From: Stagnihabitans tardus | Lineage (GTDB): Bacteria; Pseudomonadota; Alphaproteobacteria; Rhodobacterales; Rhodobacteraceae | NCBI RefSeq assembly: GCF_009925085.1 | Contig: NZ_JAABNR010000014.1 | Coordinates: 1-64,000 of the forward strand | Length of the DNA: 64,000 nt | Direction of reading: 5' to 3' | Shown here: piece by piece, positions 43,851 through 64,000 of the stretch | Position numbering within the stretch: the stretch's first letter is position 1 | How the letters are laid out: each line of letters begins with the position of its first letter | Translations under genes and position numbers: made by a program | The notes under the pieces: generated by a model | Database searches by the model: none | Told to the model about the DNA's origin: nothing | The model's input: the letters and a program-made list of their open reading frames with translations, nothing else

Positions 43851-43870
43851 GCAACTGAAGTACGGGTTCC

Positions 43871-44932: not shown

Positions 44933-44933
44933 G

Positions 44934-45114: not shown

Positions 45115-45126
45115 GGAGTGATTGTC

Positions 45127-46326: not shown

Positions 46327-46463
46327 GCTTCGCGCCGGGGCAGGGGGCTGCACGGCCCTCTGTCCATCATAACCCCCGTCCGCCCTTCCCCTCCCGGCAC
46401 TTCTTGCCACCGCAGCACGCTGCGGCTGGCTGAAGTTGCACGAGATCAACTCGTGAGCATTCC

Positions 46464-46964
46464 ATGACACGTTTCTCTGAACACAGCACCGCCTTCATGC
46501 CGCGTCGCACAGGTCGCGTTGAACTGACCGCTTCGGAACAGGCCACAATCTTTGCCGCGCGCGAGATCCTGTCGCGCCACATCAACCGCAATCCTGTCCT
46601 AACTTCCTGGACTGCGGTCATGGATTATTGCGCCCTGTCGGTGATGGGCGAGGTCGAGCGGTTTCATGTCCTGTATTTGGACCGCAAGAACCGGCTCATC
46701 TCCGACGAGCGTCTTGGTACCGGCACCGTCGATCATGTTCCGGTTTATCCTCGTGAAGTCGTCCGGCGTGCCCTGGACCTCAATGCGTCCGCCCTGATTC
46801 TGGTACACAATCACCCGTCGGGCGATCCTGAGCCTTCGGACACCGATATCGCCATGACGAAGGAGGTTCAGAAGGCCTGTCAGGCCCTCGGTCTCGTCCT
46901 GCATGACCACATCATCGTCGGTGCCGGCCGAGAAGTCAGCCTGCGCGGTCGGGGGGATTTCTGA
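46464..46964 (+). CDS. radC: RadC-like JAB-domain protein
   Basis: A 166-residue protein with the JAMM metal motif HNHPSGDPEPSDTD and the preceding E in VMGEVERFHVL. RadC-type proteins are predicted metalloproteases or nucleases often found on mobile elements; role in repair is doubtful. Start ATG at 46464 follows 137 bases of gene-free DNA that contains a GGGGCAGGGGG run (46337-46347). Confidence 0.87.
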   Translation: MTRFSEHSTAFMPRRTGRVELTASEQATIFAAREILSRHINRNPVLTSWTAVMDYCALSVMGEVERFHVLYLDRKNRLISDERLGTGTVDHVPVYPREVVRRALDLNASALILVHNHPSGDPEPSDTDIAMTKEVQKACQALGLVLHDHIIVGAGREVSLRGRGDF

Positions 46965-47080
46965 TGACCGGCCCCGGGCGTGGCGGCCAAGTCGGTCAGA
47001 GGAAGAGAAGGGCAGGGGGGGGGGTCGACGGGTTGGAGACCGAGAGAGAGGCTCTCGGCGCCCGTCTGGAGATCGGTCCG

Positions 47081-49219: not shown

Positions 49220-49224
49220 CCTTG

Positions 49225-49254
49225 AACGGGGTGGCTTCGGTCACCCCGTTTTTT
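49225..49254 (+). terminator. Rho-independent terminator
   Basis: AACGGGGTG and CACCCCGTT form a 9-bp stem with an 8-base loop, followed by six T residues, directly after the large ParB-like gene. This is a clear intrinsic terminator ending the run from 45127. Confidence 0.85.
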
Positions 49255-49281
49255 CATGTGGGGGATTGAGAGGCGGGGCCT

Positions 49282-49509
49282 TCAGGCAAGGCGTTCGGAG
49301 TATCGCTTCTTCACGGCCCGGTTGATGAATTCGTTCAACCCATCGCCTGATCGCGCGAGGACGATCATGCGGTCGATATTGGCCTGGCCGGCTGACACCG
49401 AGGTGTAGCGATAGATCGCTCCGTCCTTGAACGCGACATCCACATGCGTGGAGCCGATGTCATAGGCACGGATGCCGGAATCTTGGTCCCAATCACGATA
49501 TGGTGTCAT
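49282..49509 (-). CDS. KTSC-domain-like protein
   Basis: A 75-residue protein with the pattern SGIRAYDIGSTHVDVAF, KDGAIYRYTSV and LNEFINRAVKKRY, which fits the KTSC domain of lysyl-tRNA synthetase-like and phage/plasmid proteins. Role unknown. It is convergent with the large ParB-like gene and is the only minus-strand gene in that part besides the defence modules. Confidence 0.65.
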   Translation of the reverse strand: MTPYRDWDQDSGIRAYDIGSTHVDVAFKDGAIYRYTSVSAGQANIDRMIVLARSGDGLNEFINRAVKKRYSERLA

Positions 49510-49689
49510 TCGAGTCCCTGCGTCACAATATGCTGAAGAAGCATAGTGACTGTTCGTGTTTCGTTCAAGCTCAGGTGCATTTGCGGTGGCCCGGGGTTTC
49601 GACGTGCCTTTGCCATGCGATCATTGAAGCGGCAGGACATCGGGCGGGGGAGGAGGGCAAGGCCCTACGGCCGGATTGTCATTGAGGAG

Positions 49690-50566
49690 GGCTGTTGAAC
49701 TCGTCGTGTCAGCCCGATCAGCCAGCGTCTTGGCCCAATCGCTGCCCTCGTTCGAGTATCGTTCGTTACCTGCCATCACGCTGGCAGACCTGAACCGGTG
49801 GGGTGGCGGGAGTCGCGCGGCGGCAGGGCAGGGGGATGTGCAAACCGGCCTGACCTAACCAGAGGTGATCCCATCGCCGGAAGTGCCTGACCTGTCTTTC
49901 CTGCCGGGCCTTCAGGGTCGCCTTGATCTCCGTGAATTTCTTGTCCCAGCCCGCGTCCAATCGGCCTCTGGTGATGGGCTGATCTGCCCGAAGGACGTCT
50001 TCGCCTCGACCGCTTCGGCGCAACAGCGTCGTCGCAACTTTCTTCCCCTGCCGGTGCGGGCACCGCCATTCCTCGCGAAGCAAGAAAGTTCCTCCTGTGC
50101 TGTCCAGCCCCCGTGAAGGGGGTGCGCCATCGGTCGCCTCCGGGCTGTCGATCGCCATCGAGGCCGCAAGGACGCGGGCCCGAAACAGCAAAACGGAGAA
50201 AGATCATGGCGACCATCGGCACCTTCAAGAAGACCGGCACCGAATACACCGGCGAAATCTTCACCCTCAGCCTGCAGGCCAAGGGCGTGCGCCTCGTCCC
50301 GACCTCGGGCGCCTCGGGCGAGAATGCCCCCACCCACCGGGTCCTGGTCGGCCGCGCCGAGATCGGCGCCGCCTGGACGAAGAAATCGAACGAGAACCGC
50401 GAATACCTGGGCCTGAAGCTGGACGATCCGAGCTTCGCGGCTCCGATCTACGCCAACCTCTTCGACGACGAAGACGGCGAGGGCGCGAGCCTGATCTGGT
50501 CCCGCCCCAACACCCGCCGCGGCGACTGATCGCCAAGGAAAAGGCCCCGGTCGAAAGACCGGGGCC
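49690..50566 (+). repeat. Long direct repeat, copy 1 (DUF736 region)
   Basis: This stretch matches 57590-58501. Similarity is patchy in the first ~200 bases, then strong from about 49910 (shared motifs such as TCAGGGTCGCCTTGATCTC), through the DUF736 gene to the hairpin at 50543-50566. The hairpin has a 10-bp stem GGCCCCGGTC/GACCGGGGCC with a GAAA loop. The gap 49510-50205 holds no supported gene, only the decaying repeat. Confidence 0.85.
50206..50529 (+). CDS. DUF736 protein, copy 1
   Basis: A 107-residue DUF736 protein (MATIGTFKKTGTEYTGEIFT, then LGLKLDDPSFAAPIYANLF). DUF736 genes are frequent on alphaproteobacterial plasmids; the function is not known. Its product is identical to that of 58141-58464; the genes differ by only a few silent bases. 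It is followed by a GAAA-loop hairpin and then the AbiE module on the other strand. Confidence 0.9.
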   Translation: MATIGTFKKTGTEYTGEIFTLSLQAKGVRLVPTSGASGENAPTHRVLVGRAEIGAAWTKKSNENREYLGLKLDDPSFAAPIYANLFDDEDGEGASLIWSRPNTRRGD

Positions 50567-50616
50567 GAAGGCCTCTTCCAGATCGGCGACAACCGCTCTC
50601 CGGCGCCAAGTGGGCC

Positions 50617-51672
50617 TCAGCGGTTCGCATCGTCCTGAAACTGCCCGATCCGGGCCAGGATTTCGTCGAAGGCTGGAGCCTTCGCGTCGAACATCATCGG
50701 CGCCATGGCGCGGTAATCGGCGCGGAGATCCTTGAGCCTTGCCTCACTCGGCAGCAGCCGCAGTGATCCTGGCTTTGCCGTGTCATAGCTGGCCCATGCC
50801 GAGCGGAAGAAGATCGACTTGTGCCGCGCGACCTGCGCCAGGAGGTCGAAATCTTGCGCTGCCGCCTTCCCCTCGACGGTCTCAAGCAGCATCGCGATAT
50901 CGTAGAAGTGTCGCGAGAAATATTGCGGCGCGGGTGAGCCTTCTGGCCGATGGGCTTCTGCATGGAGTGCCGTGACCTTCTCCCAAAAGGTGCGTCGCGC
51001 AGACAGGACGGTCACAGTCGTGTCGGGGTCCTCGAAGTAGTCAGGGAAGTCCTCGGCTGCATAGGGCCGGATCACCTTTTCCTCGGTTGGCCAGGGATCA
51101 CCGCGGGCTCCGAGTTCGAGTTTCACGCGGGGGGTAATGTAGGACATTCCGGCATATTCTGCGCTGGCAAACGCCGGCGGGTAGTGGAAGTTCACTGTCT
51201 GGGCATCGGCATGATCGATGACCAGAGACCATTCTCCCTGGGAAGGTTCTCCCAAGGCGCTGACGACGGCGGCCCGCAGGGTAGGGAGAAATCTGCCTGC
51301 GATATGGGCCGCGACATCGTCACCGAGATCGTCGATCAGCTTCTCTGCCTTCTTTCGGCCGAGGCCTTCCTTTTCGGGGTTTCGTTCGCCCGCGTACCCA
51401 AGGTCGGCGCGGTCAAACGACAGGTCGATATCTTCGGAAAACCGCCGGATTGCGTCATATGCCTTCGAAAGCGATGTGCCACCCTTGAAGACAAGCGACG
51501 CGGTCTCGCCTTTCGGCAAGGCAAAGATACGCCGGAGGGTCCAGCAGACCCAGAAGTCCTTCTCGATGATCGTGTTGGAGACACCTCTCGCGGCGGCGCT
51601 TTCCCCGAACAGTGCGGCCCGTTCGGCGGCGGGGAGTCGGGCGACCTTATCCACGAAGGTCGCCCGTTCCAT
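50617..51672 (-). CDS. abiEii: AbiEii-type nucleotidyltransferase toxin
   Basis: A 351-residue protein with the AbiEii signatures FKGGTSLSKAYDAI and RRFSEDIDLSFDR, where GGTSLSK and the two acidic residues form the nucleotidyltransferase site. AbiEii toxins block growth when freed from AbiEi control and act against phages. The ATG at 51672 overlaps abiEi by 26 bases. Upstream frame extension is inside abiEi and was not used. Confidence 0.88.
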   Translation of the reverse strand: MERATFVDKVARLPAAERAALFGESAAARGVSNTIIEKDFWVCWTLRRIFALPKGETASLVFKGGTSLSKAYDAIRRFSEDIDLSFDRADLGYAGERNPEKEGLGRKKAEKLIDDLGDDVAAHIAGRFLPTLRAAVVSALGEPSQGEWSLVIDHADAQTVNFHYPPAFASAEYAGMSYITPRVKLELGARGDPWPTEEKVIRPYAAEDFPDYFEDPDTTVTVLSARRTFWEKVTALHAEAHRPEGSPAPQYFSRHFYDIAMLLETVEGKAAAQDFDLLAQVARHKSIFFRSAWASYDTAKPGSLRLLPSEARLKDLRADYRAMAPMMFDAKAPAFDEILARIGQFQDDANR

Positions 51673-52276
51673 GACCGGCAATCGACAGAAGCGTAGCGCG
51701 CATCCAGGCAGGCGCTTGAGCTGCGCTCTTGCTGAGGATCTTCTTGTCGCCGTCTGACAGGGTACGGGCCGCGACTTGTGCCACATCTGCAGCGCGGGAC
51801 ACGCCGACATGGCGCAGCGCCTGAACGACGGTCCCGGCTGGGCTGCCGGGCGCAATTAGATGCTTAGGCGAGGCATGGCGAAGGTCCACGATGCGCTTGC
51901 CCAGCACGACGCGCCGGGAGGGGCCATCGGTGAGCCAGGAGCTTTGGGCGGCAACCTGGGTCGAAAGGCCAAGCGCATTCGCGGCGCGGGCACCGTCGAT
52001 TTGTAGGTGGGAACCGGTTTCCCGGGCGAGCGCCTGTGCCACATCGTCCGGCGCAGGGGACAGGGCTCCGAGTTTGGGGTGCAGCCTGGGAAAATCATAG
52101 AGCCCGCGGGCAAGCCGCCGCAGTTGGCCGGATTTCGCCAGTCGTGACAGGGCCTGGTCGACAGCGGCCCGGGCCGCGATGTCGAGGAAATCGCGAGGTG
52201 TGAAAACGCTGCCGCGTCCGTTTGCACGGGCACGCTTCATGACCCGGTCGGGAACAGAGGCGGATGGCGTCATCAT
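51647..52276 (-). CDS. abiEi: AbiEi-type antitoxin (DUF6088-like)
   Basis: A 209-residue protein with an N-terminal winged helix (VFTPRDFLDIAARAAVDQAL, SGQLRRLARGLYDFPR) and a longer C-terminal part. DUF6088/AbiEi proteins repress their own operon and neutralise AbiEii. The start has tandem ATGs (52276, 52273). It is first in the two-gene operon, overlapping the toxin gene. Confidence 0.82.
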   Translation of the reverse strand: MMTPSASVPDRVMKRARANGRGSVFTPRDFLDIAARAAVDQALSRLAKSGQLRRLARGLYDFPRLHPKLGALSPAPDDVAQALARETGSHLQIDGARAANALGLSTQVAAQSSWLTDGPSRRVVLGKRIVDLRHASPKHLIAPGSPAGTVVQALRHVGVSRAADVAQVAARTLSDGDKKILSKSAAQAPAWMRATLLSIAGHGTGDLRG

Positions 52277-52380
52277 GTGTCAGAAAATAGGCTATGTTTT
52301 TCTGACAATCAAGTGTGGAGACTCTGATCTTGGCTGCGGGTGGTGTCAGAGGTAGATGGTGTGCAAAAAGCATTGCACAT

Positions 52381-52468
52381 CCCGGCAGGGCCGGGACCAG
52401 GCACTGGTCGTGCCGACTGGAGCCTGCCAGGCAGTCTCCCCCACTCGGGCAACGATCCCTTGCGCGAC
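52381..52468 (+). repeat. Conserved non-coding element A
   Basis: A structured stretch with a CCCGGC/GCCGGG hairpin, an inner ACCAGGCACTGGT dyad, and the block GACTGGAGCCTGCC, then CGGGCAACGATCCC. It is repeated, with changes, at 62524-62614. Each copy bounds a defence module on the side away from DUF736. The 52277-52900 gap holds this element and a GGGGCAGGGG run (52667-52676), but no gene I can support. Confidence 0.6.
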
Positions 52469-52900
52469 GGCCAGTCTGGCCGGAAGGAAAGCAGTGCCGA
52501 TGGGTTCGGCGCTTCGACCTCGTGCCAGGGATTTCCAGGTGGCGTGCTTGCCCGCCCGTATACATCAACTGCGGCAGCGGGCTGCCATTCCTTCCCGGCT
52601 TGAACCATGGTGATCGCCGGTGACCCGCATGGCATCAAGGCTGGCGAGCGGTGGGCATCCTCAGACGGGGCAGGGGCTCCTGTCCGGGGCAAAGCCCCAT
52701 CCCCCGCTTCCATTCGCTGTCCTTGGTCTGATCCGTCTCTTTGACATTCAACCCCAGAGGGGTCGGCTACGCGGGCGTGCCGCCCTCGCGGATTTGGACG
52801 AGCCAAACGCACGAGGGTGATTGCAGATCCGGTCAGACACTTCGGGCGCCTGTCGCGCGGGGGATGGTCCTCCGCCCCCAAGAAGACAGGAGCCGACCCC

Positions 52901-53065
52901 ATGTCCAAGAAGGATGCCACCGCTTACGCCGCCAGCCTTGCCGCCACGCTGATGGTCGCGATCACCGTGTTTCAGGCCGGGGACGGCACGCACGGGGCGA
53001 TGCCGTCCGATGAATACGACGGCGACGAGGCGCTCGTCGCCCTGGAAATAGACCCCTGGCAATGA
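52901..53065 (+). CDS. 54-residue hypothetical protein
   Basis: A small protein starting MSKKDATAYAASLAATLMVA with a weakly hydrophobic first half and an acidic second half (SDEYDGDEALVALEID). A GACAGGAG site lies 8 bases before the ATG. I do not recognise it, but similar tiny genes accompany DUF6878 genes on such plasmids. Confidence 0.55.
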   Translation: MSKKDATAYAASLAATLMVAITVFQAGDGTHGAMPSDEYDGDEALVALEIDPWQ

Positions 53066-53200
53066 GGCGCGAAGCGCCTCACTCCCCTCATCGGGTCGCG
53101 CTCTTCCAGCGTGCCCATCCGGGGAAGCGGCGCCGAACCGAAGGTTCCGGCAAGGGAGAGGTCGAGAAGGGAGCGGGCAGGGCGAGCCCGCCGGGGAAGA

Positions 53201-53235
53201 GAGAGCAGCGGCGGGCTTGCCCTTGATCCGCTCTC
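53201..53235 (+). promoter_or_regulatory. Leader hairpin before DUF6878 gene
   Basis: GAGAGC pairs with GCTCTC, enclosing GGGC-TT-GCCC. GGAG follows and the ATG is at 53250. The same plan (GAGAGC...GCTCTC, then GAGG and TCCCG before ATG) is seen at 62659-62694, so it looks like a conserved leader. Confidence 0.45.
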
Positions 53236-53249
53236 CCGGAGATCCCGAC

Positions 53250-53744
53250 ATGACCATTCACCTTCCCGGCCGCGCTGCGGCGGCCGCCGAGGTCGCGCCA
53301 GACCTGGCGCGGATCATGGCCGAACAGGCCGAGCGTGAGGCTGCCGAAGTGGCCCTGCACACCCGAAACAAGGAGGTGCTGTTCGACGGGCTGCGCCTCG
53401 TCGGCATTGCCCATGTCCTCGTCAGCTTCGATGGCTCAGGCGACAGCGGCCAGCTCGAAAGCATTGACGCCCGCAATGACCTCGATGCCAGCGTCACGCT
53501 GCCCGCCGCCCAGATCACCTTTGCCAGCATCGACTGGCAAAGCGGTGCACCGACCGAACGCCGCCTGACCCTTGAGGGTGCCGTCGAGGAACTGGTCTAC
53601 GACCTCCTCTCCGATACCCATTCCGGCTGGCAGGACAATGACGGCGCCTATGGCGAGTTCTGCATCGATGCCCGCGCCCGGACCATCCACCTTGAGTTCA
53701 ACGAACGGTTTACCTCGTCCGAACTCTACACCCATGATTTCTGA
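53250..53744 (+). CDS. DUF6878 protein
   Basis: A 164-residue protein with the DUF6878 pattern: KEVLFDGLRLVGIAHVLVSF and the C-terminal part HLEFNERFTSSELYTHDF. Function unknown. It is the first of a string of close-spaced plus-strand genes (53250-55727) in which gaps are 1-70 bases or genes overlap, so they likely form one operon. Confidence 0.75.
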   Translation: MTIHLPGRAAAAAEVAPDLARIMAEQAEREAAEVALHTRNKEVLFDGLRLVGIAHVLVSFDGSGDSGQLESIDARNDLDASVTLPAAQITFASIDWQSGAPTERRLTLEGAVEELVYDLLSDTHSGWQDNDGAYGEFCIDARARTIHLEFNERFTSSELYTHDF

Positions 53745-53754
53745 GGGGGCGGAG

Positions 53755-54132
53755 ATGGCACATCCATACCACCACGCCCTCTCCTCGGTGAAGAAATGGG
53801 GCGGGACGGTCGACGACTACCTGCCCCTTCACGAATTTTTCGACGCCTCGAAACTCATCCTTGCGGACTTTCGGCATCGGGCGCTGCGGCATCATGCCGA
53901 GGGAATTTTCCTATTGGAGCAGGTCCACGGGAAAACCCTGACCCTGTCCACTGGTCGGGTCATCCCGACCCGTTGGGTCGGTGAACAGCATGTCCGCGAG
54001 GATCTGGGCTTCATCCCCAGCTTTGCCGATTGGGCGCGGTCGATCCGGGCCGAGCCCTGGATGGGCCGGACCCAAAAGATCGAAGCCGAGGTCGATCCGC
54101 ATATGGCACTGCCTGTGCTGGAGGTCCGCTGA
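53755..54132 (+). CDS. DUF6915 protein
   Basis: A 125-residue protein with the pattern MAHPYHHALSSVKKWGG, LPLHEFFDASKLILADFRHR and RVIPTRWVGEQHVREDLGFI, known as DUF6915. The conserved His residues in HPYHH and HHAEG could bind metal. It is 10 bases after the DUF6878 gene and 1 base before the next. Role unknown. Confidence 0.72.
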   Translation: MAHPYHHALSSVKKWGGTVDDYLPLHEFFDASKLILADFRHRALRHHAEGIFLLEQVHGKTLTLSTGRVIPTRWVGEQHVREDLGFIPSFADWARSIRAEPWMGRTQKIEAEVDPHMALPVLEVR

Positions 54133-54133
54133 C

Positions 54134-54340
54134 ATGAGCCGGGCCTATCTGAACCTCGGCCTGCCGCCGGAGGTCTCGAACCTCACCGTCCTGCGGACGG
54201 CGATCCGTCGGTTGCACCCCGACACGCTGGCCGTCCGCAGCTGGCGCGCGGCGCGCAAGCGCTATTACCGCGAGCTGCTGCAGGCCCATGCCGCAGCGCA
54301 GGCCGCCGCCGAACGCCCTCAGCCCGCGGAAGCGGGCTGA
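54134..54340 (+). CDS. 68-residue hypothetical protein, J-domain-like start
   Basis: A small protein starting MSRAYLNLGLPPEVSNLTV and containing RRLHPDTL, which recalls the HPD loop of J-domains (here HPDT). The rest is basic and Ala-rich. It follows the DUF6915 gene by one base. Whether it works as a co-chaperone is unknown; the similarity may be short-range only. Confidence 0.55.
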   Translation: MSRAYLNLGLPPEVSNLTVLRTAIRRLHPDTLAVRSWRAARKRYYRELLQAHAAAQAAAERPQPAEAG

Positions 54341-54411
54341 TCTCCTCCCCACAGCAACCCATCCTGACCTGGCCATGTGGCCCGGGTTTCTCATCCTGAA
54401 AGGAGCCCATC

Positions 54412-54852
54412 GTGGCTGACTACTTCACCCATTTCTCCTGCGCCCTTGACGCAGGCACCCCCGAAAACGCCGCCGCGGCGCTCGACCTCCTGCTGCGCTT
54501 GCGCGCAGAGGAGGAAGACGCGGACGATCCCGAATTCTCGGGCTTCGCCCTTTCGTTGCAGGACGGCCCGGGCAGCTCCGTTCTCTGGTTCCATGACGAT
54601 GACGGACAGGGCGATGTCGAAGTCGCCATTCGCTTCGTGCTGCGCCTTGCGGAAGAGCTCGACCTCACCGGCCTTTGGGGCTTCGACTACGCCCATACGT
54701 GTTCCCGGCCCAGGCTCGAGGCGTTCGGGGGCGGTGCCCATGTCATCGACCTCGGTGCCCGCAAAAGCATCGGTTGGATCAGCACCCATGAATGGCTGAC
54801 CGCCGCGCTCAACGGCGAAGGCGTCGACGCGGTGGAGGCGCTGGTCGCATGA
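54412..54852 (+). CDS. Hypothetical acidic protein (GTG start)
   Basis: A 146-residue acidic protein starting at GTG 54412, with an AAAGGAG site 7 bases before it. It contains FALSLQDGPGSSVLWFHDDD and LWGFDYAHTCSRPRLEAFGG. I do not recognise a named family. The stop overlaps the next gene by four bases (ATGA), so both are made together. Confidence 0.65.
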   Translation: MADYFTHFSCALDAGTPENAAAALDLLLRLRAEEEDADDPEFSGFALSLQDGPGSSVLWFHDDDGQGDVEVAIRFVLRLAEELDLTGLWGFDYAHTCSRPRLEAFGGGAHVIDLGARKSIGWISTHEWLTAALNGEGVDAVEALVA

Positions 54853-55727
54853 ACACTGCCGTTGCCACCCCCACTCACGCTTCCTTCCCCGTCCCAGAAT
54901 TCGGCCGCAGTGCCGATGGCATGGCGGTGGCCCGCATCGGCGATGCCGCCTATGCCATGATCCCGAAGGCCAAAGGTGGCCATTTCCTTTGCAGCAGCTG
55001 GCGGCTGACGAAGCCGCTCTCGGACTGGAAGCGGTGCGACTTTTACGGCCATGGCGGCGATCTCGCCGACGGGGCCGCGTTCCGCGCCTTCGTTCAGGAA
55101 CAGGCCGAACATCAGGGCGAGAAGGCCGCCCTTGGGCGACAGGAACTCCGCGCCCATACCAGCACGCCGTGGGGACCTTCGCAGGGCGCGGTCCGCTATG
55201 GCGAGGGCGTGGTGTTTCACTCGACCTCCGGTCATGGCGGCCTCCACCTTGCAGCGGATCGCAATGCCAAGGTTCATCCGCTCCTGCGCGAGCCTGGTGG
55301 ATGGTACGAAGAGGACGCCGCCTGGGCGGCCGTGGCGGTCGCCTGGCCCGACCTCTTTACGGGGCACGAGCGGCGGCAGGCCGAAGAAACCCTGCGGCAC
55401 AGCTGGCCCGATGCCTGGGAGGCGATCCATGGCCGCAAGCTCAAGCCCGGCGAGTCCCATATCCGCGATGGCGAGGCCTTCGCTCGTGATCATGCGGACG
55501 ACTGGGTGGTGATCTCTGCGATCTATTCCGACCACCAGCCGGGTTTCACCGAAGTCATTGCCACGCGGGGCGGGTGTCGGGATCCCCAAGCCGAAGAACG
55601 CCGTTTCCTTGTCCCTTCGGGCGAATACAAGGTCGACCGCTTCGGCTTCGTCATCGATGACGTGCGCCATGCCATCTATGACGGCCTGTCGAGTTTCATC
55701 GGCTGGCGGGGCAGGGCAGGGGGCTGA
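54849..55727 (+). CDS. DUF7007 protein
   Basis: A 292-residue protein with the pattern TPWGPSQGAVRYGEGVVFHS, GHGGLHLAADRNAKVHP and WPDAWEAIHGRKL, known to me as DUF7007 on plasmids of this group. Many His and Trp residues are conserved. Function unknown. The last codons lie in a G-run (GGGGCAGGGCAGGGGG), and a hairpin (55738-55770) follows the stop. Confidence 0.72.
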   Translation: MNTAVATPTHASFPVPEFGRSADGMAVARIGDAAYAMIPKAKGGHFLCSSWRLTKPLSDWKRCDFYGHGGDLADGAAFRAFVQEQAEHQGEKAALGRQELRAHTSTPWGPSQGAVRYGEGVVFHSTSGHGGLHLAADRNAKVHPLLREPGGWYEEDAAWAAVAVAWPDLFTGHERRQAEETLRHSWPDAWEAIHGRKLKPGESHIRDGEAFARDHADDWVVISAIYSDHQPGFTEVIATRGGCRDPQAEERRFLVPSGEYKVDRFGFVIDDVRHAIYDGLSSFIGWRGRAGG

Positions 55728-55737
55728 CGGTTCGAAA

Positions 55738-55770
55738 GGCGGGTGCCTGATCTGCGGTCGGGCACCCGCC
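55738..55770 (+). terminator. 10-bp hairpin after DUF7007 gene
   Basis: GGCGGGTGCC and GGCACCCGCC form a perfect 10-bp stem with a 13-base loop, starting 11 bases past the stop. No T-run follows, so termination may be partial. Confidence 0.5.
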
Positions 55771-55796
55771 AGAGGCAGAGGCGGAAGGGAGGGTCC

Positions 55797-55840
55797 GTGA
55801 CGGGTTGACAGGTGGGTGGAGGTCTCCCGCCGCCCGTCAC
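55797..55840 (+). promoter_or_regulatory. Leader hairpin before 55853 gene
   Basis: GTGACGGG (55797-55804) pairs with CCCGTCAC (55833-55840); GGAG follows at once and the ATG is 13 bases on. The same design occurs before the DUF932 gene (45072-45114). Likely a post-transcriptional control element. Confidence 0.5.
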
Positions 55841-55852
55841 GGAGTGACCCCG

Positions 55853-56416
55853 ATGACCGCCCCCATTTCCCAGACCGCCTTCCGCGACTCCCGCGACAAC
55901 TTCGTTGGCGGGGCCCTGGCTCAGTTGCGCCTTGCGACCCGCCTGCCGCTCCGCGTCAGTTGCCAGTGCCGCGCGCATTGGGACGACCCGGCGCTCGATC
56001 AGCTGCGCTTCGAGCGCGAGGTGGATCTCGGCACCTTCGGCGACCTTACGGCCGCCATGGCCAAGGCTGCCATCTCCGTCGCGCCGGGTCTGATCGCGGC
56101 AGATCGCGACCCGGATCTGCGGCTGGTGCCGCAGTTCGTAACGGTCCTCGATGCCGATCACTGCCTCGTCCTGGCCGGCGAGGTGCAGGCGGGCATGATC
56201 GCCTGGTGCGCGCCTGTGACCAGTGATGCCGAGGCGCGGCGCGTGGTCAGCGAGGCGTGCCACCTGCGGGCCGAAGCTCGGGCGGTGGTGGAGGCCGGAA
56301 ATCTATTTGGGGCGGATGCGCTGATCCTTCGCGCACGTGCGCTGGAAGGCCGCCTCGTCGGTCCCTTCTGGCGCGACCTCGCCCCGAGCTTCGTACGGCA
56401 AAGCCTTGCGGCCTGA
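55853..56416 (+). CDS. Hypothetical plasmid protein
   Basis: A 187-residue protein with SQTAFRDSRDNFVGGALAQL near the start, a HCLVLAGEVQAGMIAW core and a helical C-terminus. I do not recognise the family. It has its own structured leader and is separated from the operon before it, so it may be regulated apart. Confidence 0.65.
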   Translation: MTAPISQTAFRDSRDNFVGGALAQLRLATRLPLRVSCQCRAHWDDPALDQLRFEREVDLGTFGDLTAAMAKAAISVAPGLIAADRDPDLRLVPQFVTVLDADHCLVLAGEVQAGMIAWCAPVTSDAEARRVVSEACHLRAEARAVVEAGNLFGADALILRARALEGRLVGPFWRDLAPSFVRQSLAA

Positions 56417-56442
56417 TCGGTCCCTCTCGGAAACCTGCGGGC

Positions 56443-56733
56443 CTACTTGTTGCTGTCGATCCAGCGCGACAGCAACTGCCGGTCTCGGAAGCATTCATCC
56501 GGCACCGCGCGGCGCTTGACCCGCGCGAGCCGTTCGGCAAAGGCCACCTGCTTCGAGGTCGGCTGGCCAGGGTCGGAGGGTTTCAGCTTCGCCTGCGCCT
56601 CGATCCAGGCGCTGAGCGAGCGGCAGTCCTGCTGGACCTCCCAAGGCAGAAGGCTCTGGTTCCGGAGCGCCAGCGACCGCGCATAGGCGATCTGGCGTTC
56701 AGTGGCGGGCATGGCGAAAGGGGCAGCGTCCAT
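56443..56733 (-). CDS. Small protein with two repeated TxRQ-like motifs
   Basis: A 96-residue protein made of two similar segments: TERQIAYARSLALRN with LSAWIEAQ, and TSKQVAFAERLARVK with LSRWIDSN. This shows an internal duplication of a ~38-residue helical motif seen in plasmid proteins. The ATG at 56733 has GGGAGA about 6 bases ahead, better than 56775. It is on the opposite strand to its neighbours. Role unknown. Confidence 0.6.
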   Translation of the reverse strand: MDAAPFAMPATERQIAYARSLALRNQSLLPWEVQQDCRSLSAWIEAQAKLKPSDPGQPTSKQVAFAERLARVKRRAVPDECFRDRQLLSRWIDSNK

Positions 56734-56899
56734 GATGGGTCTCCCATGCGGATCGTTCCTTGATATATTGAACAAATAGAGAACGAAATCAACTCCGCGC
56801 CCGGCAGAGAGCGAGAGATGGGTCGGAATCTGGGGGCGTTCGGGCGGGTCGAGAGAACTGCCGGGGCACGTTCTTCACCCCTGATCCAGAGGATTCCCG

Positions 56900-57322
56900 A
56901 TGACCGATGCTGCGACCACCCTGAAACCCGCGACCCTCGTGCCCGAGGCGCGCCGTATGGCCTTCTTGCCCGCCCTCTTCAGCTCCGCCCTGATGCTGAT
57001 TGGCGAGCGCGCCGTCTATCAGTTCATGTCCTGGCTCGCCCCGGACGACTACACCGGCGGCCTCTGGCATTTCCACGAACGGAAAGGCCAGCCGCTGTTC
57101 CTGTCGCCCGACGGTGACAAGCGCTTCCGCATCTTCTGCGAGACCAACGGTTACATGGGCGAGGTTTCGGCGGAGGCCGCCGGGATCATCGCCACTCTCT
57201 TTGCCTTGTCACATCTCTCGTTCCAGCACGAAGCCGATCAGCTGTCGGAGGCCTACATGCGGCTCTACGAGTTCGCGGGCGAGCATCCCGAGGCAGGCGA
57301 GATCTTCAAGGCGATCGACTGA
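56900..57322 (+). CDS. ardB: ArdB/KlcA-family antirestriction protein
   Basis: A 140-residue protein with the ArdB/KlcA pattern: EARRMAFLPALFSSALMLIG, YTGGLWHFHE, ETNGYMGEVSAEAAGIIATL and a HPEAGEIFKAID end. Such proteins protect incoming plasmids from type I restriction. The start is preceded by AGAGG about 9 bases ahead. It fits the mobile nature of this replicon and the presence of defence genes on it. Confidence 0.9.
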   Translation: MTDAATTLKPATLVPEARRMAFLPALFSSALMLIGERAVYQFMSWLAPDDYTGGLWHFHERKGQPLFLSPDGDKRFRIFCETNGYMGEVSAEAAGIIATLFALSHLSFQHEADQLSEAYMRLYEFAGEHPEAGEIFKAID

Positions 57323-57589
57323 CAGTGGGCGGCACCGATCTGACTGGCACTTCGCAATCCTGTGGCACCCTCCGGCGGTTTCGTCGGGGGGTGTTTCCAT
57401 TTGGCGGATGGAACTGGCTTATGCTGCACATGAGGCGCAGACGCACTGCCCAACGTCAGCGATCGTATCGGGCCATCATGGCCCCAGTGGTCTCGACAGA
57501 TCTTTGCTAGGCGATCATCGGCTTGGCGGTGAGTGGGGCAGGGGGGCCCGGGCAACAGCCCCGCCGTCTGATTGTCCCCGATTTGGGCG

Positions 57590-58501
57590 GAGGTGTTGGA
57601 GACCGCAGCCCTGATCGACCAGCATCTTGGCCCGATTGCGGCCAGGTCGTTCGAGGACCGTCTGTTGCTCAGCCTTCGGCGGGCAGACCAGAACCCAATA
57701 ACGCGGCGAATGCCGCGAGGCAGCAGGGCAGGGGGGGGCACACGCAGGCCTGATGGGCTGAGGGTTCTCATCGTCTGTGGTGCCAGTCCTGTCTCTAGTT
57801 CTGGGCCTTCAGGGTCGCCTTGATCTCCTCGCCCGTCTGTCCCAGCCCGCGTCCAAACGGCCTCTGGTGATGGGCTGATCTGCCCGAAGGATGTCTTCGC
57901 CTCGACCGCTTCGGCGCAACAGCGTCGTCACAACTTTCTTCCCCTGTCGGTGCGGGCACCGTCATTCCTCGCGCGGCAAGAAAGTTCCTCCTGTGCTGTC
58001 AGGGCCCCGACCCACCCCAGCACGCGAGCGTGCAGGGGACCCCGGGATGCGGGGCTGCGCCATCGGTCGCCTCCGGGCTGTCGATCGCCATCGAGGCCGC
58101 AAGGACGCGGGCCCGAAACAGAGCAAAACGGAGAAAGATCATGGCGACCATCGGCACCTTCAAGAAGACCGGCACCGAATACACCGGCGAAATCTTCACC
58201 CTCAGCCTGCAGGCCAAGGGCGTGCGCCTCGTCCCGACCTCGGGCGCCTCGGGCGAGAATGCCCCCACCCACCGGGTCCTGGTCGGCCGCGCCGAGATCG
58301 GCGCCGCCTGGACGAAGAAATCGAACGAGAACCGCGAATACCTGGGCCTGAAGCTGGACGATCCGAGCTTCGCCGCTCCGATCTACGCCAACCTCTTCGA
58401 TGACGAAGACGGCGAGGGCGCGAGCCTGATCTGGTCCCGCCCCAACACCCGCCGCGGCGATTGATCGCCAATACAAAGGCCCCGGTCGAAAGACCGGGGC
58501 C
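57590..58501 (+). repeat. Long direct repeat, copy 2 (DUF736 region)
   Basis: Second copy of the repeat at 49690-50566. It carries the same upstream segment (with a ~40-base insertion near 58005-58050 bearing an AGCACGCGAGCGTGC dyad), the DUF736 gene and the GAAA-loop hairpin (58478-58501). The 57323-58140 gap has no supported gene, only repeat sequence and two G-runs (57535-57546, 57722-57738). Confidence 0.85.
58141..58464 (+). CDS. DUF736 protein, copy 2
   Basis: The product is identical, all 107 residues, to that of 50206-50529. Only a few synonymous bases differ, which points to a recent duplication or gene conversion. It is followed by the same hairpin and then by the minus-strand module with pRiA4b ORF-3, herA and sir2 genes. 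Confidence 0.9.
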   Translation: MATIGTFKKTGTEYTGEIFTLSLQAKGVRLVPTSGASGENAPTHRVLVGRAEIGAAWTKKSNENREYLGLKLDDPSFAAPIYANLFDDEDGEGASLIWSRPNTRRGD

Positions 58502-58547
58502 GATGGCGTTTCACTCCTGTTTGCACCGAAGGGCTATAAGCCCTAGG

Positions 58548-59159
58548 TTATCCTTCTGAACGAAAGCTGTAGCTGCCGCGGGCTTTCCTGAGAGCCAAGT
58601 CGACAGATTTCTGACTTTTGGTACGATCAAACGCCTCCGGATTGAAGGATTTGCCGACCCACTTCCGGTTTGACCGGTGTTCCGGATGGTCTTTATCGTT
58701 CAAGGATGCAACAAATTCATCATATGAGTGAGGACCCCCGCTGTCTTCGGGTGGTCCACTTCGTTCGCCATCCAAGAGATGCGCTTTCTTCTCGGGGTTA
58801 TCCAGCCGGACGTGGGTCTCGAGGTCCAGTTGATGAACCCAGCCATCGCCGAAGTCGTACTCATACAGGAAATAGGGGTTCTTGATCCGGTGGAAATCAA
58901 GATCGCGAAGGGCAAGGTCTGCTGCGTCGAGAACGCGTCGTTGTCCTAATCCACCGTCTTCGAACTCAGGCGCACCGAGGATTAGGCCGCCGACAGTAAA
59001 CTGGTGCATGTGGCTATTCTGCCAACCAAAACAAGCCTGAAGGACCTCATGGAGTTCAGCGAAGTTCAAGTCTGGAGAAAGGACGATTCGACGCCAGATC
59101 GGCGGATTTATCCCCCAAAGCCATACACGGAACTGGAGAGCGAGGTCGTGCAACGGCAT
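58548..59159 (-). CDS. Plasmid pRiA4b ORF-3 family protein
   Basis: A 203-residue protein with the pattern QFRVWLWGINPPIWRRI, NFAELHEVLQACFGWQNSHM, HQFTV and FLYEYDFGDGWVHQLDLE, which defines the pRiA4b ORF-3 family. Function unknown; the family is widespread on plasmids. It lies downstream of herA on the same strand, with a 101-base gap, so it may or may not belong to the defence unit. Start at 59159 begins the conserved domain; 59249 is an alternative. Confidence 0.82.
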   Translation of the reverse strand: MPLHDLALQFRVWLWGINPPIWRRIVLSPDLNFAELHEVLQACFGWQNSHMHQFTVGGLILGAPEFEDGGLGQRRVLDAADLALRDLDFHRIKNPYFLYEYDFGDGWVHQLDLETHVRLDNPEKKAHLLDGERSGPPEDSGGPHSYDEFVASLNDKDHPEHRSNRKWVGKSFNPEAFDRTKSQKSVDLALRKARGSYSFRSEG

Positions 59160-59260
59160 CCAAGAAAACCCCCACAGAGAACCGCGAACGGAAGTTCTCC
59201 GGACGATGTCTGAATCAACGGTCTTTCGCAAGCCGGCTCCATAAACCATGCCCGAACGAC

Positions 59261-61057
59261 CTACTCCACAACCTTTGCGTCTTGCCCCCAGCGTTCCTGG
59301 TATTGCGGCCCGTGAGAGGCTGGGCGCTGCCCCTTCTCTGGTTGGGTCATTAGGATGGGTAGCGGCGCCGGCAAATCTGGTCCGACTACGATTGCCTCGC
59401 CTTGCGCAAGCGACGGGATAAAGGCGGCGGCGCTTCTGTCCAGATCACCGCAGGCCCGCTCGATCGTCTCTCTATCCCGTTCATTGGTCAATCGATGGAC
59501 GAACAGCGTACCAAGTTGGCTGAGTACATCCTGCGGCACATCGCGCGGGCGCTGCGTAGCGATAACAGTCGTCAACCCATACTTTCTCCCTTCCTTGGCG
59601 ATCAGGCCGAAAGCGTCAAGCGGAACGCGATTCAGGTCGTCGCCCACGGACCGTCCGATAAACTGATGTGCTTCATCGAGAAAGCAAACCATCGGATTAT
59701 CCCGAAACTGCCCTTTTCGCGCCAAGCCCAGCAGGTGTCGACCCAGGGTATTGAGAAGAATCTCGCGTGTATTGTGCTTGAAGCTGACCATTTCGAACGA
59801 CAAGACCAGCGCGCGAGCGTTCGGATCTGCAAGAAATGCATCAATCTGCGAACAGATGTCGACACCGCGGTCTGAAAAGAGGCACGCCAGTTCCGGCGAG
59901 GACAAGAAGGTTTCGATCCGGACGATGAGAGAATTGCAATACCCTGCCATATTCTTGTCAGGCCCGCCGAAGAATCCAGCATTGTCGCCCGTTGGAAAGA
60001 TGCACTCGTTCTTGACTTGTCGCGCTAGGCTTCCAAGGTCGAAGTCACAGTGCTCCGACGACAGCCTTTCGGACAAAATACGCTCCGCTTTTCCAAAGGC
60101 GTTCCAGCTCTTGTTGGCCTTCAAGACTGTCCCATGCTCATCAATGGTGATGAATCCGAAGGCCTGACCATTTTGACTGATCTGGACATTTCTCAGTCCT
60201 CCTGCCGGTTCGACTGGAAACGGGGCGGGTTCAGAAAGAAGTGCCTCCGCCAACCTCAGGCTCTTGGTCGCGCTTCTCAATGCGGGCCCTTGGCTTTGGA
60301 CCGTCGGGGTCAACAGCGCGTGCAGATCCAGTTCGGAGAGCAGCCGACTCGGGAACCGAGCCAAGGGCTGATCTTTGGCGCCAGCCTCGCCAAACGCAAA
60401 CTGGCGTGCGCCGCCTACCTTGCCTGTAAACTCACCGGTTGGGTCGAATAGGATGCATTTCCCCCCCAAACGGACCACCTCGTTCACAAGACGTGAGACG
60501 GTCCAGCTCTTGCCTCCTCCGGTGGCGCCAAACACTCCGCAGTGACGGCCAAAGAGTTTTTCCGGCGGGATGCTTATGTCTGCTCCATCAATTCCAGAAA
60601 GACGACCGAGATTGACCAGCAGTGGGCCTCCCGGGCGAGTAGTTTCGCCTTTTAGAGCGTCCTTGACGGCCAACGAAAGTGCATGGCCGTCCGCCAAGAA
60701 TATCCCATCGCCGACCCTAGGCTGCGAATTGATGCCTCGCGACACCTTTTGCGTTGTTTTGCTTACGGTGGCCAAGAGCTGCAGGCGGCCTTGAGGTTCG
60801 ACAAAAGGGTCTTGTTCTATCTGGTGCTCAAGGCTACTTCGTTGTTTTTCTGGAATGGTCACTTCGGTGATGCGCCCAAGAATGACGTCACGGTCGCAGT
60901 CAATGAAGACGAAGTCGCCGACCGCGCCGCGAGCCATTCCTCGTCGCCCGGATGCTGCTAGGGCCATCGGTAGCGTGAGCTCGACTTGGCTAGCAGATAC
61001 CCGTGTAACGGTCCCAATTCGCTTTGCAGGATCGACCAGCGCTGCCCTATCGGTCAT
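59261..61057 (-). CDS. herA: HerA-like ATPase/translocase (SIR2-HerA defence)
   Basis: A 598-residue DUF87/HerA ATPase. An N-terminal beta-barrel-like (HAS) domain (about 10-70) precedes the ATPase core with Walker A GATGGGKS (177-184), Walker B PMVCFLDEAHQF and an IATQRPRDVP stretch. HerA forms hexamers that move DNA. Next to sir2 it fits the SIR2-HerA anti-phage system, in which both proteins form one complex and NAD+ is depleted upon infection. The start overlaps the sir2 stop by four bases. Confidence 0.88.
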   Translation of the reverse strand: MTDRAALVDPAKRIGTVTRVSASQVELTLPMALAASGRRGMARGAVGDFVFIDCDRDVILGRITEVTIPEKQRSSLEHQIEQDPFVEPQGRLQLLATVSKTTQKVSRGINSQPRVGDGIFLADGHALSLAVKDALKGETTRPGGPLLVNLGRLSGIDGADISIPPEKLFGRHCGVFGATGGGKSWTVSRLVNEVVRLGGKCILFDPTGEFTGKVGGARQFAFGEAGAKDQPLARFPSRLLSELDLHALLTPTVQSQGPALRSATKSLRLAEALLSEPAPFPVEPAGGLRNVQISQNGQAFGFITIDEHGTVLKANKSWNAFGKAERILSERLSSEHCDFDLGSLARQVKNECIFPTGDNAGFFGGPDKNMAGYCNSLIVRIETFLSSPELACLFSDRGVDICSQIDAFLADPNARALVLSFEMVSFKHNTREILLNTLGRHLLGLARKGQFRDNPMVCFLDEAHQFIGRSVGDDLNRVPLDAFGLIAKEGRKYGLTTVIATQRPRDVPQDVLSQLGTLFVHRLTNERDRETIERACGDLDRSAAAFIPSLAQGEAIVVGPDLPAPLPILMTQPEKGQRPASHGPQYQERWGQDAKVVE

Positions 61058-62403
61058 GCGGTACCCTCGGCACGAATGCGTTCTAGACGGTTTTGTAGCC
61101 TCTGACGGTCGGATTCGCCCGAGATGACTGGAACCGCGTCCGCCAGATCCTCGAACCTTCCGTTAAGTACCGAAATTCGAGCGTCCCCTTGCTGAACCAG
61201 CTTCATTATTCGCTTCTGATAGTCCCTTTGCCCTTCGATGTCCGCATCGATGAGGTGGCTGTCGCCCGCCAGTGATGCGCTATCCAGCTTCTTCGGGTCT
61301 AGCAGGGCCGGGTCGCAAAGGACCAATCTGAGGGACAAGTTCGACTCCAGCGCCGACCAGATCGGCGAACTGATATGATCATCGGCAAATCCATACCCTG
61401 CGATGATCAACGTGGTGTCCGGCTCGCGAAGGCAGCTCTGCAAGGCGGAGAACATGTCAAGGTATGGGCTCTCAAAGGATTCTTGGTACTTGGACGAACG
61501 TGGGTAGATCAGGACGGGCCGTAGGGTCGACGTGTTTTCAGTGCTGCGAATAACAACGTTGTCCGGTTGCCGCCGCCAATCGATGGATCCATGCAACTTA
61601 TAGAGATGGAAGACGCCGTCTACGTATTCGGCCTTCGTGCTGATCGCGGTTCTCCGGACTATGTCATGTTGGAAGTTATCGCGGTTAAATCTCTGTCGAG
61701 CGCTGTGGGAGAAACCATCGATCAGGACGATATTCTGTCGGAGCGCGGCCTGTTCGATGCACAGATCATAGTTCGTCGTGAACAAGCGCACCCGTGGTTT
61801 CTCTCCGCTTCGACGAGCAAACTTCTGCAGTAACGACATGTGTGCTTGCACGGCGGTCTTTTCCGTGACGAAGTCCACGCGGTCCAGGATTGTCTGCTCG
61901 GCCTGAGTAAGAAACCGGATCAGCGTGTTTCGCATTTTTGCATCCGAAGTTGCTCCTTCAGCACTGGCGCGCACTGACAGAAGTTCGAGCTGAATTTTGC
62001 ACAGGCTGAGCAATCCCTCGATGTTCTTCTTTAAGTCTGCTGCGGCTCGACCGGTGACTGCGCGAACCACTTCTTCAAAGGTCATACCTATTTCGCTCTT
62101 GGCGGTATCGATCGCGGATTGAACTGTGTCCCACAGATCTCCCATGCCGGGAGCCGAAGCGGAACCGTCGTTCTTGGCACAGAAGGACGCACCAGACCCC
62201 AACAGGACAATAACGTTCGTCGAATGGAGCGCAGCTTGGAGCACTTCGTCGACCAGGTCCTTGCAACCCGTCCTGCGTCGGGCGGTCGGACCATCATCTG
62301 GGTTCGGCTCCTGATCTTCCCAAGCAAGCCACTTGCTTTCCCGCGTCAAAAGGCGAAGCAGGTTTGCTTGGCCTGCTGGCTGCTCGTCCCAAAATGTCTT
62401 CAT
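61054..62403 (-). CDS. sir2: SIR2-domain NADase (SIR2-HerA defence)
   Basis: A 449-residue protein with a SIR2 fold: VIVLLGSGASFC (GSGAS at 69-73) as the NAD-binding loop, FTTNYDLCIEQA, FHLYKLHGSIDW with the catalytic-type histidine, and LIIAGYGFADDHI. The C-terminal ~80 residues may contact HerA. SIR2 proteins of this type cleave NAD+ to stop phage growth. I use the ATG at 62403; a GTG at 62415 is weaker. The promoter lies between here and the repeated element at 62524. Confidence 0.88.
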   Translation of the reverse strand: MKTFWDEQPAGQANLLRLLTRESKWLAWEDQEPNPDDGPTARRRTGCKDLVDEVLQAALHSTNVIVLLGSGASFCAKNDGSASAPGMGDLWDTVQSAIDTAKSEIGMTFEEVVRAVTGRAAADLKKNIEGLLSLCKIQLELLSVRASAEGATSDAKMRNTLIRFLTQAEQTILDRVDFVTEKTAVQAHMSLLQKFARRSGEKPRVRLFTTNYDLCIEQAALRQNIVLIDGFSHSARQRFNRDNFQHDIVRRTAISTKAEYVDGVFHLYKLHGSIDWRRQPDNVVIRSTENTSTLRPVLIYPRSSKYQESFESPYLDMFSALQSCLREPDTTLIIAGYGFADDHISSPIWSALESNLSLRLVLCDPALLDPKKLDSASLAGDSHLIDADIEGQRDYQKRIMKLVQQGDARISVLNGRFEDLADAVPVISGESDRQRLQNRLERIRAEGTA

Positions 62404-62523
62404 TCCGAATACCACCTACATGTCGTTCGCGTGTCAGTGTCGGCCTATTTGCGTGTGGGTGTAAATACCTCGACGGAATATCGCGAGGGTTGATCACTCT
62501 TGATGTTTCTGTATGTGGCACCT

Positions 62524-62614
62524 CCCGGCCTTCTGCCGGGACCGCGCTCTGGTCCTTCGGACTGGAGCCTGCCGGGGCAGTCTCCCCCCATCCGGGCAAC
62601 GATCCCTGGCGCGA
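62524..62614 (+). repeat. Conserved non-coding element B
   Basis: A second copy of the element at 52381-52468: CCCGGC/GCCGGG hairpin (with a CTTCT-type loop), the block GGACTGGAGCCTGCCGGGG, CAGTCTCCCCC and CGGGCAACGATCCCTGGCGC. The loops differ while the stem and downstream block are kept, as expected for a functional RNA or DNA structure. Confidence 0.6.
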
Positions 62615-62658
62615 AGAGAGAGAGGGGTGCCGGGACGGGTCGGGTCCGGCGGGTGAGA

Positions 62659-62708: not shown

Positions 62709-64000
62709 ATGAACGACCTCTCCCCGGCGACCTTTGCGCAAGCGCCGGTCGCCCCGGCCTCTGCCATCCTGGCTGCGGCTGGCCTGTTGCTGCCCTTGCT
62801 CGAACGCGGGCAGCGCGTCGACGCCGTCTTGCTGCGTACGGCCGTGGAAACCGCCTTTGGCGCTTCTGATGCCTCAGGCCTCTGGGACTGGAAGACGGCG
62901 TATGAGGCTTGCGAGGCCGCGACTGTCCTCTTCCTGCGGAAATACGGCCGCGCCATCTTCCGCCAGGCGGACACGCCCACAGTGCGACTGGCCGCCCTCT
63001 CGAAGATCACGGGCCTACTGCCCAGTCACACGCGCCGCTCCGAGGAAGGCCAGGCACTGCAGCAATTTTCGACGCCGGTTCCGCTCGGACTCGCTGCATT
63101 GACCGCCGCGGCAATCCGGCCCGACGACGTGGTGCTGGAGCCTTCAGCCGGAACCGGCCTCCTGGCCATCCTCGCCGAAATCTCCGGCGGGCGTCTGATC
63201 CTCAACGAGTTGGCGGACACCCGGACTGACCTCCTCTCCTCCCTCTTCCCGGCCCTTTCTGTCAGCCGCTTCGATGCGGCACAGATCCACGACCATCTCG
63301 ATCCCGCAGATGTGCCTTCGGTGGTCCTGATGAACCCGCCGTTCTCCGCGATGGCGAATGTCACCGGCAAAGTGCAGGATGCCGCCTACCGCCACATCGC
63401 CTCCGCTCTGGCGCGGCTTGCCCCAGGCGGGCGGCTTGTGACGATCACCGGCGCGGGGTTCGGCCCCGACATGCCACCCTGGCGCGAGGCTTTCGTCCGG
63501 CAGCAGGAACGCGCGACCGTCGTGTTTTCGGCGGCGATAGACGGCTCGGTCTATGCGCGCCACGGCACGACGTTTCCGCCGCGGCTGACGGTCATCGACA
63601 AAGTCCCCGCTGCCGATCCTTCCCAGTTTCCGGCCCCGCCCGGCACGGCGCCGGACGTCGCGACCCTGCTCCGCTGGATCGCCGACCATGTGCCGCCGCG
63701 CCTGTCGGTGGATTTGCCGAAGCCACCATCGCCGACCCAGCCCGCTGCTGCGCGCTCGGTCCGAGGCTATATCGCTCGGGCGAATGCGGCCCCGGCAATG
63801 CGCAAACCCACCGCTTCGCCAGCGGCCCTCGAGCTCGCTTACGAGACCGTCGATGCTGTGCCGCCCGATGCTGCACGCCTCTCCGATGCGATCTATGAAG
63901 AATACGGCCTGCAATCGATCCGGATTCCCGGCGCGGTGCCGCATCCGACGAAGTTGGTGCAATCCGCCGCCATGGCCTCAGTCGCGCCGCCACGCCCGAC
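62709..64000 (+). CDS. Strawberry-notch family protein with N-terminal methyltransferase (partial)
   Basis: The frame is open from the ATG at 62709 to the window end (430 codons visible). The first part is a methyltransferase-like domain: VLEPSAGTGLLA (SAM loop, about residue 143) and VVLMNPPFSAMA (NPPF motif). Near the end, SIRIPGAVPHPTKLVQSAA leads into the strawberry-notch helicase region, which would continue beyond the window. Such large proteins are typical of plasmids and ICEs in Rhodobacteraceae; a role in DNA modification plus remodelling, perhaps antirestriction, is suggested but unproven. Confidence 0.85.
   Translation, partial: MNDLSPATFAQAPVAPASAILAAAGLLLPLLERGQRVDAVLLRTAVETAFGASDASGLWDWKTAYEACEAATVLFLRKYGRAIFRQADTPTVRLAALSKITGLLPSHTRRSEEGQALQQFSTPVPLGLAALTAAAIRPDDVVLEPSAGTGLLAILAEISGGRLILNELADTRTDLLSSLFPALSVSRFDAAQIHDHLDPADVPSVVLMNPPFSAMANVTGKVQDAAYRHIASALARLAPGGRLVTITGAGFGPDMPPWREAFVRQQERATVVFSAAIDGSVYARHGTTFPPRLTVIDKVPAADPSQFPAPPGTAPDVATLLRWIADHVPPRLSVDLPKPPSPTQPAAARSVRGYIARANAAPAMRKPTASPAALELAYETVDAVPPDAARLSDAIYEEYGLQSIRIPGAVPHPTKLVQSAAMASVAPPRP

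Follow-up and report, generated by a model that had tools for sequence, protein, structure and literature searches.

Why does the same DUF736 gene stand twice on one bacterial DNA stretch, each time in front of an unrelated block of minus-strand genes? The question is raised by 64,000 nt from Stagnihabitans tardus (Rhodobacteraceae), hereafter the window, which is part of the 82,228-base contig C14 in an assembly of 4.59 Mb. C14 is probably a plasmid, judging from annotated plasmids which share its gene order. Between 45 and 64 kb, its plus-strand backbone is interrupted twice by minus-strand blocks, as had been described in an earlier note made from the sequence of the window alone. This note had proposed an exchangeable slot for defence genes, present twice on one plasmid. 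The comparison with related plasmids bears out a real, repeated and exchangeable cargo slot with a repeated unit as its border, for which we infer an exchange mechanism below. Slots with shared borders, turnover of their cargo, tandem stacks, likeness of the units within some plasmids and a lack of slot-specific ancestry are all observed.

The first DUF736 unit (49594..50570, plus strand; left border set by eye, right border at the hairpin) comprises a left end, a leader, the DUF736 gene (50206..50529; PF05284, E 3.1e-33) and a terminal GAAA-loop hairpin (50543..50566), which forms the left border of slot 1. The second unit on the same strand (57488..58503, left end approximate) has its gene at 58141..58464 and its hairpin, the left border of slot 2, at 58478..58501. 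Both hairpins read GGCCCCGGTC-GAAA-GACCGGGGCC, with a perfect 10-bp stem and a GAAA loop. The DUF736 copies had been called identical, which is true of the two 107-aa proteins, whereas the genes are 99.1% identical over 324 nt and the upstream parts are less alike; the repeat detected by BLAST reaches about 500 nt 5′ of the gene. Unrelated minus-strand modules follow the two hairpins where they had been placed before. In slot 1 these are an AbiEii toxin-like gene (50617..51672; PF08843, E 1.2e-42; PADLOC AbiEii) and a DUF6088/AbiEi-like gene (51647..52276; PF19570 and PF13338; PADLOC AbiEi). Slot 2 holds a gene of the PRiA4_ORF3 family (58548..59249; PF07929, E 1.8e-50; no PADLOC model), a HerA-type ATPase gene (HerA/DUF87; 59261..61057; PF01935; PADLOC HerA, E 5.7e-144) and a SIR2 gene (SIR2_2; 61054..62403; PF13289; PADLOC SIR2, E 4.1e-82).

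Evidence for exchange comes from slot 2. In Frigidibacter sp. RF13 (G211), which has the same backbone and two DUF736 copies, homology to the window covers positions 42126-50570, 52601-56382, 56443-58503 and 62517-69316 and breaks at the cargo in between. The slot-2 breaks lie at the same places in Tabrizicola RU_1_2 (G325) and Tabrizicola SY72 (G397), and across the four syntenic plasmids the borders agree within a few bases while the cargo differs: SIR2-HerA-PRiA4_ORF3 in the window, an OLD/AriA-like AAA-TOPRIM protein in G325, IetA-IetS in G397, and an M78-type peptidase with DUF6791-ThiF and DUF6527 in G211. A base-by-base comparison puts the left border where the hairpin ends and the right border at the beginning of a non-coding element (GGCACCTCCCGGC or a close variant of it), with unrelated DNA between the two. 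The left border falls at 58501-58512 in ten of ten relatives and the right one at 62513-62518 in all seven that reach this side. A tblastx comparison of eleven slot-2 intervals (the ten cargos counted here and chrA of pAMI8; E 1e-8) revealed shared sequence in one of 55 pairs (L098/L100). The comparison of relatives that the earlier note had suggested thus found different cargos between the same borders in the close clade.

The idea that the cargo consists of defence genes was too narrow. Four of the ten slot-2 cargos are clearly defensive (SIR2-HerA, OLD-like, IetAS, and a short Argonaute with a nuclease partner in Gemmobacter caeni), and two are probably so (QatC-like with RmrA-like; ThiF/DUF6527, the latter with weak PADLOC matches). 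Judged by the scans, the other four are not defence systems: a metallophosphoesterase with a WYL regulator; a monooxygenase-like protein with LysR; resistance-nodulation-division efflux genes with unknowns; and AraC, a flavin adenine dinucleotide enzyme, Rrf2 and a kinase. In a Paracoccus metagenome-assembled genome (L100) and in Fuscibacter (L113), the right end of slot 2 lies beyond the fetched 8 kb and the genes were partly scanned; a Rhodobacter capsulatus copy at a contig edge (L108) was excluded from the count. Nor is the cargo always on the minus strand, as had been supposed, since five cargos are entirely minus, three mixed and two entirely plus. Names such as IetAS, CBASS and Frpo, where they go beyond the labels of the tools, are what we take these systems to be.

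Slot 1 mostly carries toxin-antitoxin sets across fourteen loci. AbiEii/DUF6088 is found in five of these (four by alignment to the window) and HipA with a helix-turn-helix (HTH) protein in three, while HipA with DUF6088, HipA with a 348-aa protein and DUF6088, DarT-macro with DUF6088, and a pair with a sub-threshold AbiEii match occur in one locus each. The remaining two loci (L110 and L115) harbor tandem stacks with HipA in the order unit-cargo-unit-cargo. Similar stacks exist in Indioceanicola and in the Paracoccus aminophilus plasmid pAMI8, which has four units. The stacked cargo of L115 also includes a NOV_C-domain protein (6392-7219; PADLOC PDC-S36, E 2.9e-122) beside HipA and a 348-aa protein, the latter without Pfam match. 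In two further genomes (G287, G100), slot 1 contains neither unit nor cargo, and only 510-585 nt separate the same flanks; these are a clean empty site, for slot 1 only.

A rival explanation takes the slots as ordinary tolerant sites: cargo would accumulate behind operon-end terminators because insertion there causes little damage, and the DUF736 duplicates would be bystanders. Of 53 DUF736 copies inspected, 46 carry the terminal hairpin, the cargo-free copies of L132, L134, L139 and L153 among them; the hairpin is therefore primarily the end of the DUF736 transcription unit, an ordinary gene end even where cargo is absent, which suits this explanation. It also gains from a further cargo block on C14 which lies right behind a plus-strand PF10686 gene with a hairpin (by eye) and without DUF736, and from four distant plasmids in which AbiEii/AbiEi precedes the SNO element and the displayed stretch contains no DUF736. 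Against it stand the joint absence of unit and cargo from slot 1 of G287 and G100 and the stacks of both in four plasmids; moreover, all 14 slot-1 units as well as all readable slot-2 units of the clade head cargo. We rate tolerant sites as rather unlikely, although they are the strongest competitor.

A second alternative regards the unit as a non-autonomous transposable or site-specifically integrating element with hairpin ends, the cargo being inserted at the hairpin by a recombinase acting in trans. In its favour, the unit is sharply bounded at either end where its surroundings are unrelated. When up to 760 bases before 25 DUF736 copies were aligned (L106 was too short and omitted), a common left border about 610 bases 5′ of DUF736 was recognized by eye in 24 of the 25 copies listed. 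Beyond this border, slot-1 copies adjoin ParB-side DNA, slot-2 copies antirestriction-side DNA, and tandem copies cargo. Slot 1 of Tabrizicola SY72 is the one exception, its leader being cut; in this plasmid (L085/L102) DUF736 lies almost directly against the end of the DUF932-like gene, without the RadC/ParB stretch and without most of the leader. On the right side, the end point of the repeat among units of one plasmid ranges from +358 to +376 (counted from the ATG) in five plasmids and is +391 in Indioceanicola. Furthermore, the left end resembles an inverted right hairpin; in 16 of 25 copies the local score exceeds the highest of 50 single-base shuffles, one of the 16 matching at another position. 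The other nine copies lack an inverted end, and the hairpin on 46 of 53 copies, cargo-free ones included, also speaks against a role as an insertion end. Within unit 1, the gene caller gives DUF736 only, the four other overlapping open reading frames (ORFs) have no Pfam match, and no recombinase or transposase was found. We consider an integrating element improbable. A search for solved structural relatives of DUF736 yielded none (best E 0.56).

How the copies are related was examined by pairwise identities of the 324-nt gene. Copies from the same slot of different plasmids share 94.1% (n=158) and copies from different slots 93.9% (n=156), so the units show no slot-specific ancestry. Nine pairs of slot-1 and slot-2 genes within one plasmid average 96.7%, a value that 5 of 5000 label permutations attain; the corresponding count is 73 of 5000 for the leaders and 16 of 5000 for the distal upstream part (seven pairs). 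The strongest pairs are those of the window (99.1%) and of Frigidibacter (100%, including 330 nt of leader). Our reading is frequent recombination among units within and between plasmids, and we infer the events themselves.

We lean, with some reserve, towards an explanation in which repeated DUF736 units head cargo slots and the cargo is replaced as a block. The DUF736 gene, its folded leader and the terminal hairpin form a repeated unit of about 1 kb, which in a single Rhodobacterales plasmid lineage heads slots that lie between backbone operons; everything from the hairpin to the next backbone leader would be swapped in one piece. Units and cargo would move by homologous recombination, between units on the left and in the conserved next operon on the right. 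Alternatively, a circle of unit and cargo could recombine into an existing unit, which would yield unit-cargo stacks.

Several observations weigh against movement of units and cargo by recombination. Neither a circular intermediate nor a recombinase nor a crossover was observed, and homologous recombination does not explain how new cargo is first attached to the border. A copy from the same plasmid is the nearest neighbour of no more than 12 of 24 gene copies and 7 of 24 leaders. With identities of only 92.3% (L110) and 96.3% (L115) between the stacked pairs, these stacks did not arise by recent copying. In G287 and G100, the element and the antirestriction stretch that precedes slot 2 are absent as well, so these genomes offer no clean empty site for slot 2. 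Finally, in 38 of 54 more distant loci (L120-L174 minus L136), the backbone follows within 620 nt after DUF736, without cargo.

This last count defines the range of the slots. A scan of a species-genome collection with the DUF736 protein gave 271 relatives, of which the best 80 were kept, corresponding to 77 distinct loci; the first 40 of these were mapped to C14. The 22 loci with at least 92% DUF736 protein identity (L098-L119, several from one plasmid) hold the slots. Among the more distant loci, backbone is reached after 3.7 kb in two, and the other 14 show other arrangements, cargo of the slot-1 type or short contigs. Because backbone mostly follows DUF736 directly in distant loci, slot behaviour belongs mainly to one Rhodobacterales lineage and to a few isolated plasmids, for example Haematobacter pOT1-2 and Sphingopyxis pMC4, both with HipA-HTH. 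As a general mark of the hotspot, DUF736 was rejected outside the clade on the 38 cargo-free loci.

The same non-coding element had been reported behind both modules, and its copies at 52374..52470 and 62517..62615 (both plus strand) are indeed 81% identical across 97 nt (E 8e-19, with the 82-kb contig and five plasmid stretches as search space). Copy 2 is the leader of the plus-strand backbone gene SNO (strawberry-notch-like; 62709..64000, continuing to 67028; an ORF whose orthologues are annotated as strawberry notch or S-adenosylmethionine-methyltransferase/helicase) and stands 94 nt before it as the right border of slot 2. This form occurs 94-96 nt 5′ of SNO in all eight close plasmids seen there, whatever the cargo, and is recognizable 5′ of SNO in distant plasmids too. 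Copy 1 accompanies the DUF6088 cargo: its form occurs in 10 plasmids, in each of which DUF6088 is the last cargo gene (one match covers only 27 nt), and was not found in four slot-1 loci without DUF6088 (L101, L102, L117, L118). The element therefore exists outside this plasmid, as the proposed slot had demanded, but a general slot border it is not, one form being tied to SNO and the other to DUF6088. Each locus scores better with the form of its own slot, the two being up to 90% alike over part of their length, and the forms thus keep to their slots, unlike the DUF736 units. Examined as a strongly covarying RNA, the element gave a covariation term of +0.09, with compensation in 3 of 20 pairs; shuffles fold as well as the slot-1 copy (z -0.29) but less well than the slot-2 copy (z -3.62).

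The most surprising part, absent from the earlier note, is the folded leader of DUF736 (copy 1 at 49921..50205, copy 2 at 57846..58140, both plus strand; 172 nt of copy 2 match copy 1 at 94%, with a core motif at 57933-57973). This sequence of about 280 nt forms one long covarying hairpin which pairs the ribosome-binding site. For leader 1, fold z-scores are -5.20 on the plus and -5.75 on the minus strand, with 0 of 100 shuffles as good on either; leader 2 has -2.65 and -3.65, with 1 of 100 on each. Among 911 windows of a fold scan, leader 1 ranks third on the minus strand and lies outside the best 25 on the plus strand, and leader 2 is outside the best 25 on both. When 37 leaders were folded one at a time with DNA parameters, the outermost pair spanned at least 244 nt in 32, and in 29 of these it ended at most 9 nt from the ATG and covered the ribosome-binding site; L133, L141, L157, L162 and L165 fold differently.

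Covariation was evaluated over 24 chosen loci and 88 pairs. Pairing is possible in 89.3% of the alignment cells versus 35-43% with the partner slid by 1-3 columns, and 28 pairs are changed on both sides, compared with 7-10 after sliding and 19.1 in shuffles; the slid versions are handicapped, as the structure comes from the same alignment, and the shuffles ignore relatedness. The covariation score is 0.179 versus 0.093 and was reached by none of 500 shuffles. The measure of further standard pair types was no better than shuffles, 324 of 500 reaching its value. In a first alignment with the outer arm cut off, 4 of 32 pairs were compensated; longer alignments changed this picture. Wobble pairs favour the minus strand (69 versus 48 cells over 85 shared pairs), and in five rows of the close clade they go the opposite way (4 versus 6), so the bias may be taken as a hint for a DNA rather than an RNA function, and no more. 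A search of Rfam 15 gave two matches in the whole window (E up to 1) and none in units or elements. The leader core was located at 21 places in 16 of 292 genomes of the order, and a reversed control gave none. With leader and gene as query, 637 of 72,556 plasmid records match some part, 237 of them over at least 80%. A second long hairpin in the window (52755-52900) pairs the ribosome-binding site in front of a 55-aa ORF that begins at 52901, and related sequence precedes small ORFs in many alphaproteobacterial loci; a rough test on 20 sequences, at least two of them inverted (L119, L121), gave 16 of 54 compensated pairs versus 3-10 slid.

From its fold and position, the DUF736 leader is a candidate single-strand promoter. 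It resembles the Frpo/ssi promoters of plasmid leading regions, as far as these are outlined in PMC11541004, in that a folded single strand lies directly 5′ of a gene and in that antirestriction and ParB-like genes occur in the region; the comparison covered fold and gene neighbourhood. In the open-access literature, nothing was recognized on Frpo in rhizobia or Agrobacterium and nothing on slots of this type. We know of no single-strand promoter of such kind in Alphaproteobacteria; the leader hairpin is widespread and, if it truly acts in this way, would be a new one for this class. A bolder proposal would make the unit a cargo-loading module, with the leader as a single-strand promoter active on cell entry and the unit as a homology arm for defence and toxin-antitoxin cargo; at present we regard this as unlikely.

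The slots belong to the known theme of defence hotspots and are new in having a repeated unit as border. Pseudomonas genomic islands carry modular defence hotspots, three of them on PAPI-1, according to the hotspot descriptions in PMC12629846. Variable defence cargo at conserved places, with several places per mobile element, is common to both; here, a repeated gene unit with a long, folded leader serves as left border, and units are stacked in tandem. Mixed defence, toxin-antitoxin and metabolic cargo within defined borders is also reported for Tn7-like transposons (PMC8649781, in its account of cargo). Unlike there, no transposase was found among the cargo proteins scanned here, and arrays of end repeats were not searched for. 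On Mesorhizobium integrative and conjugative elements, DUF736 (msi110) is present on all elements compared and often duplicated, as stated in the comparison of PMC8627217; here, cargo stands beside the copies and the leader is folded. For this lineage, the slot borders provide a handle on plasmid defence systems, which can be read between the DUF736 hairpin and the SNO leader, and the repeated units offer a possible, testable route by which plasmids swap defences.

Apart from SNO, which is named from annotated plasmids, the plus-strand backbone includes DUF6878, DUF7007 and an antirestriction gene (by Pfam), a ParB-like gene and a toprim protein; the DUF932-like and RadC-like genes were assigned by position and annotated relatives only. 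G325 (L083) has an insertion of about 1.5 kb inside SNO, between the stretches matching window positions 63064 and 63066. Elsewhere in the window, a cobalamin riboswitch is located at 22428-22643 (E 3e-27). Just beyond the window, C14 69324-79663 (L006 9324-19663) is a further cargo slot without DUF736. It lies directly 3′ of the plus-strand PF10686 gene with its terminal hairpin and contains, on the minus strand, a type I restriction-modification system with a RhuM gene followed by a DncV-like cyclase and an E1-E2 gene, presumably of the type of cyclic oligonucleotide-based antiphage signalling systems (CBASS). At the position of C14 69324, G211 and G325 start with a different sequence, which is alike between these two.

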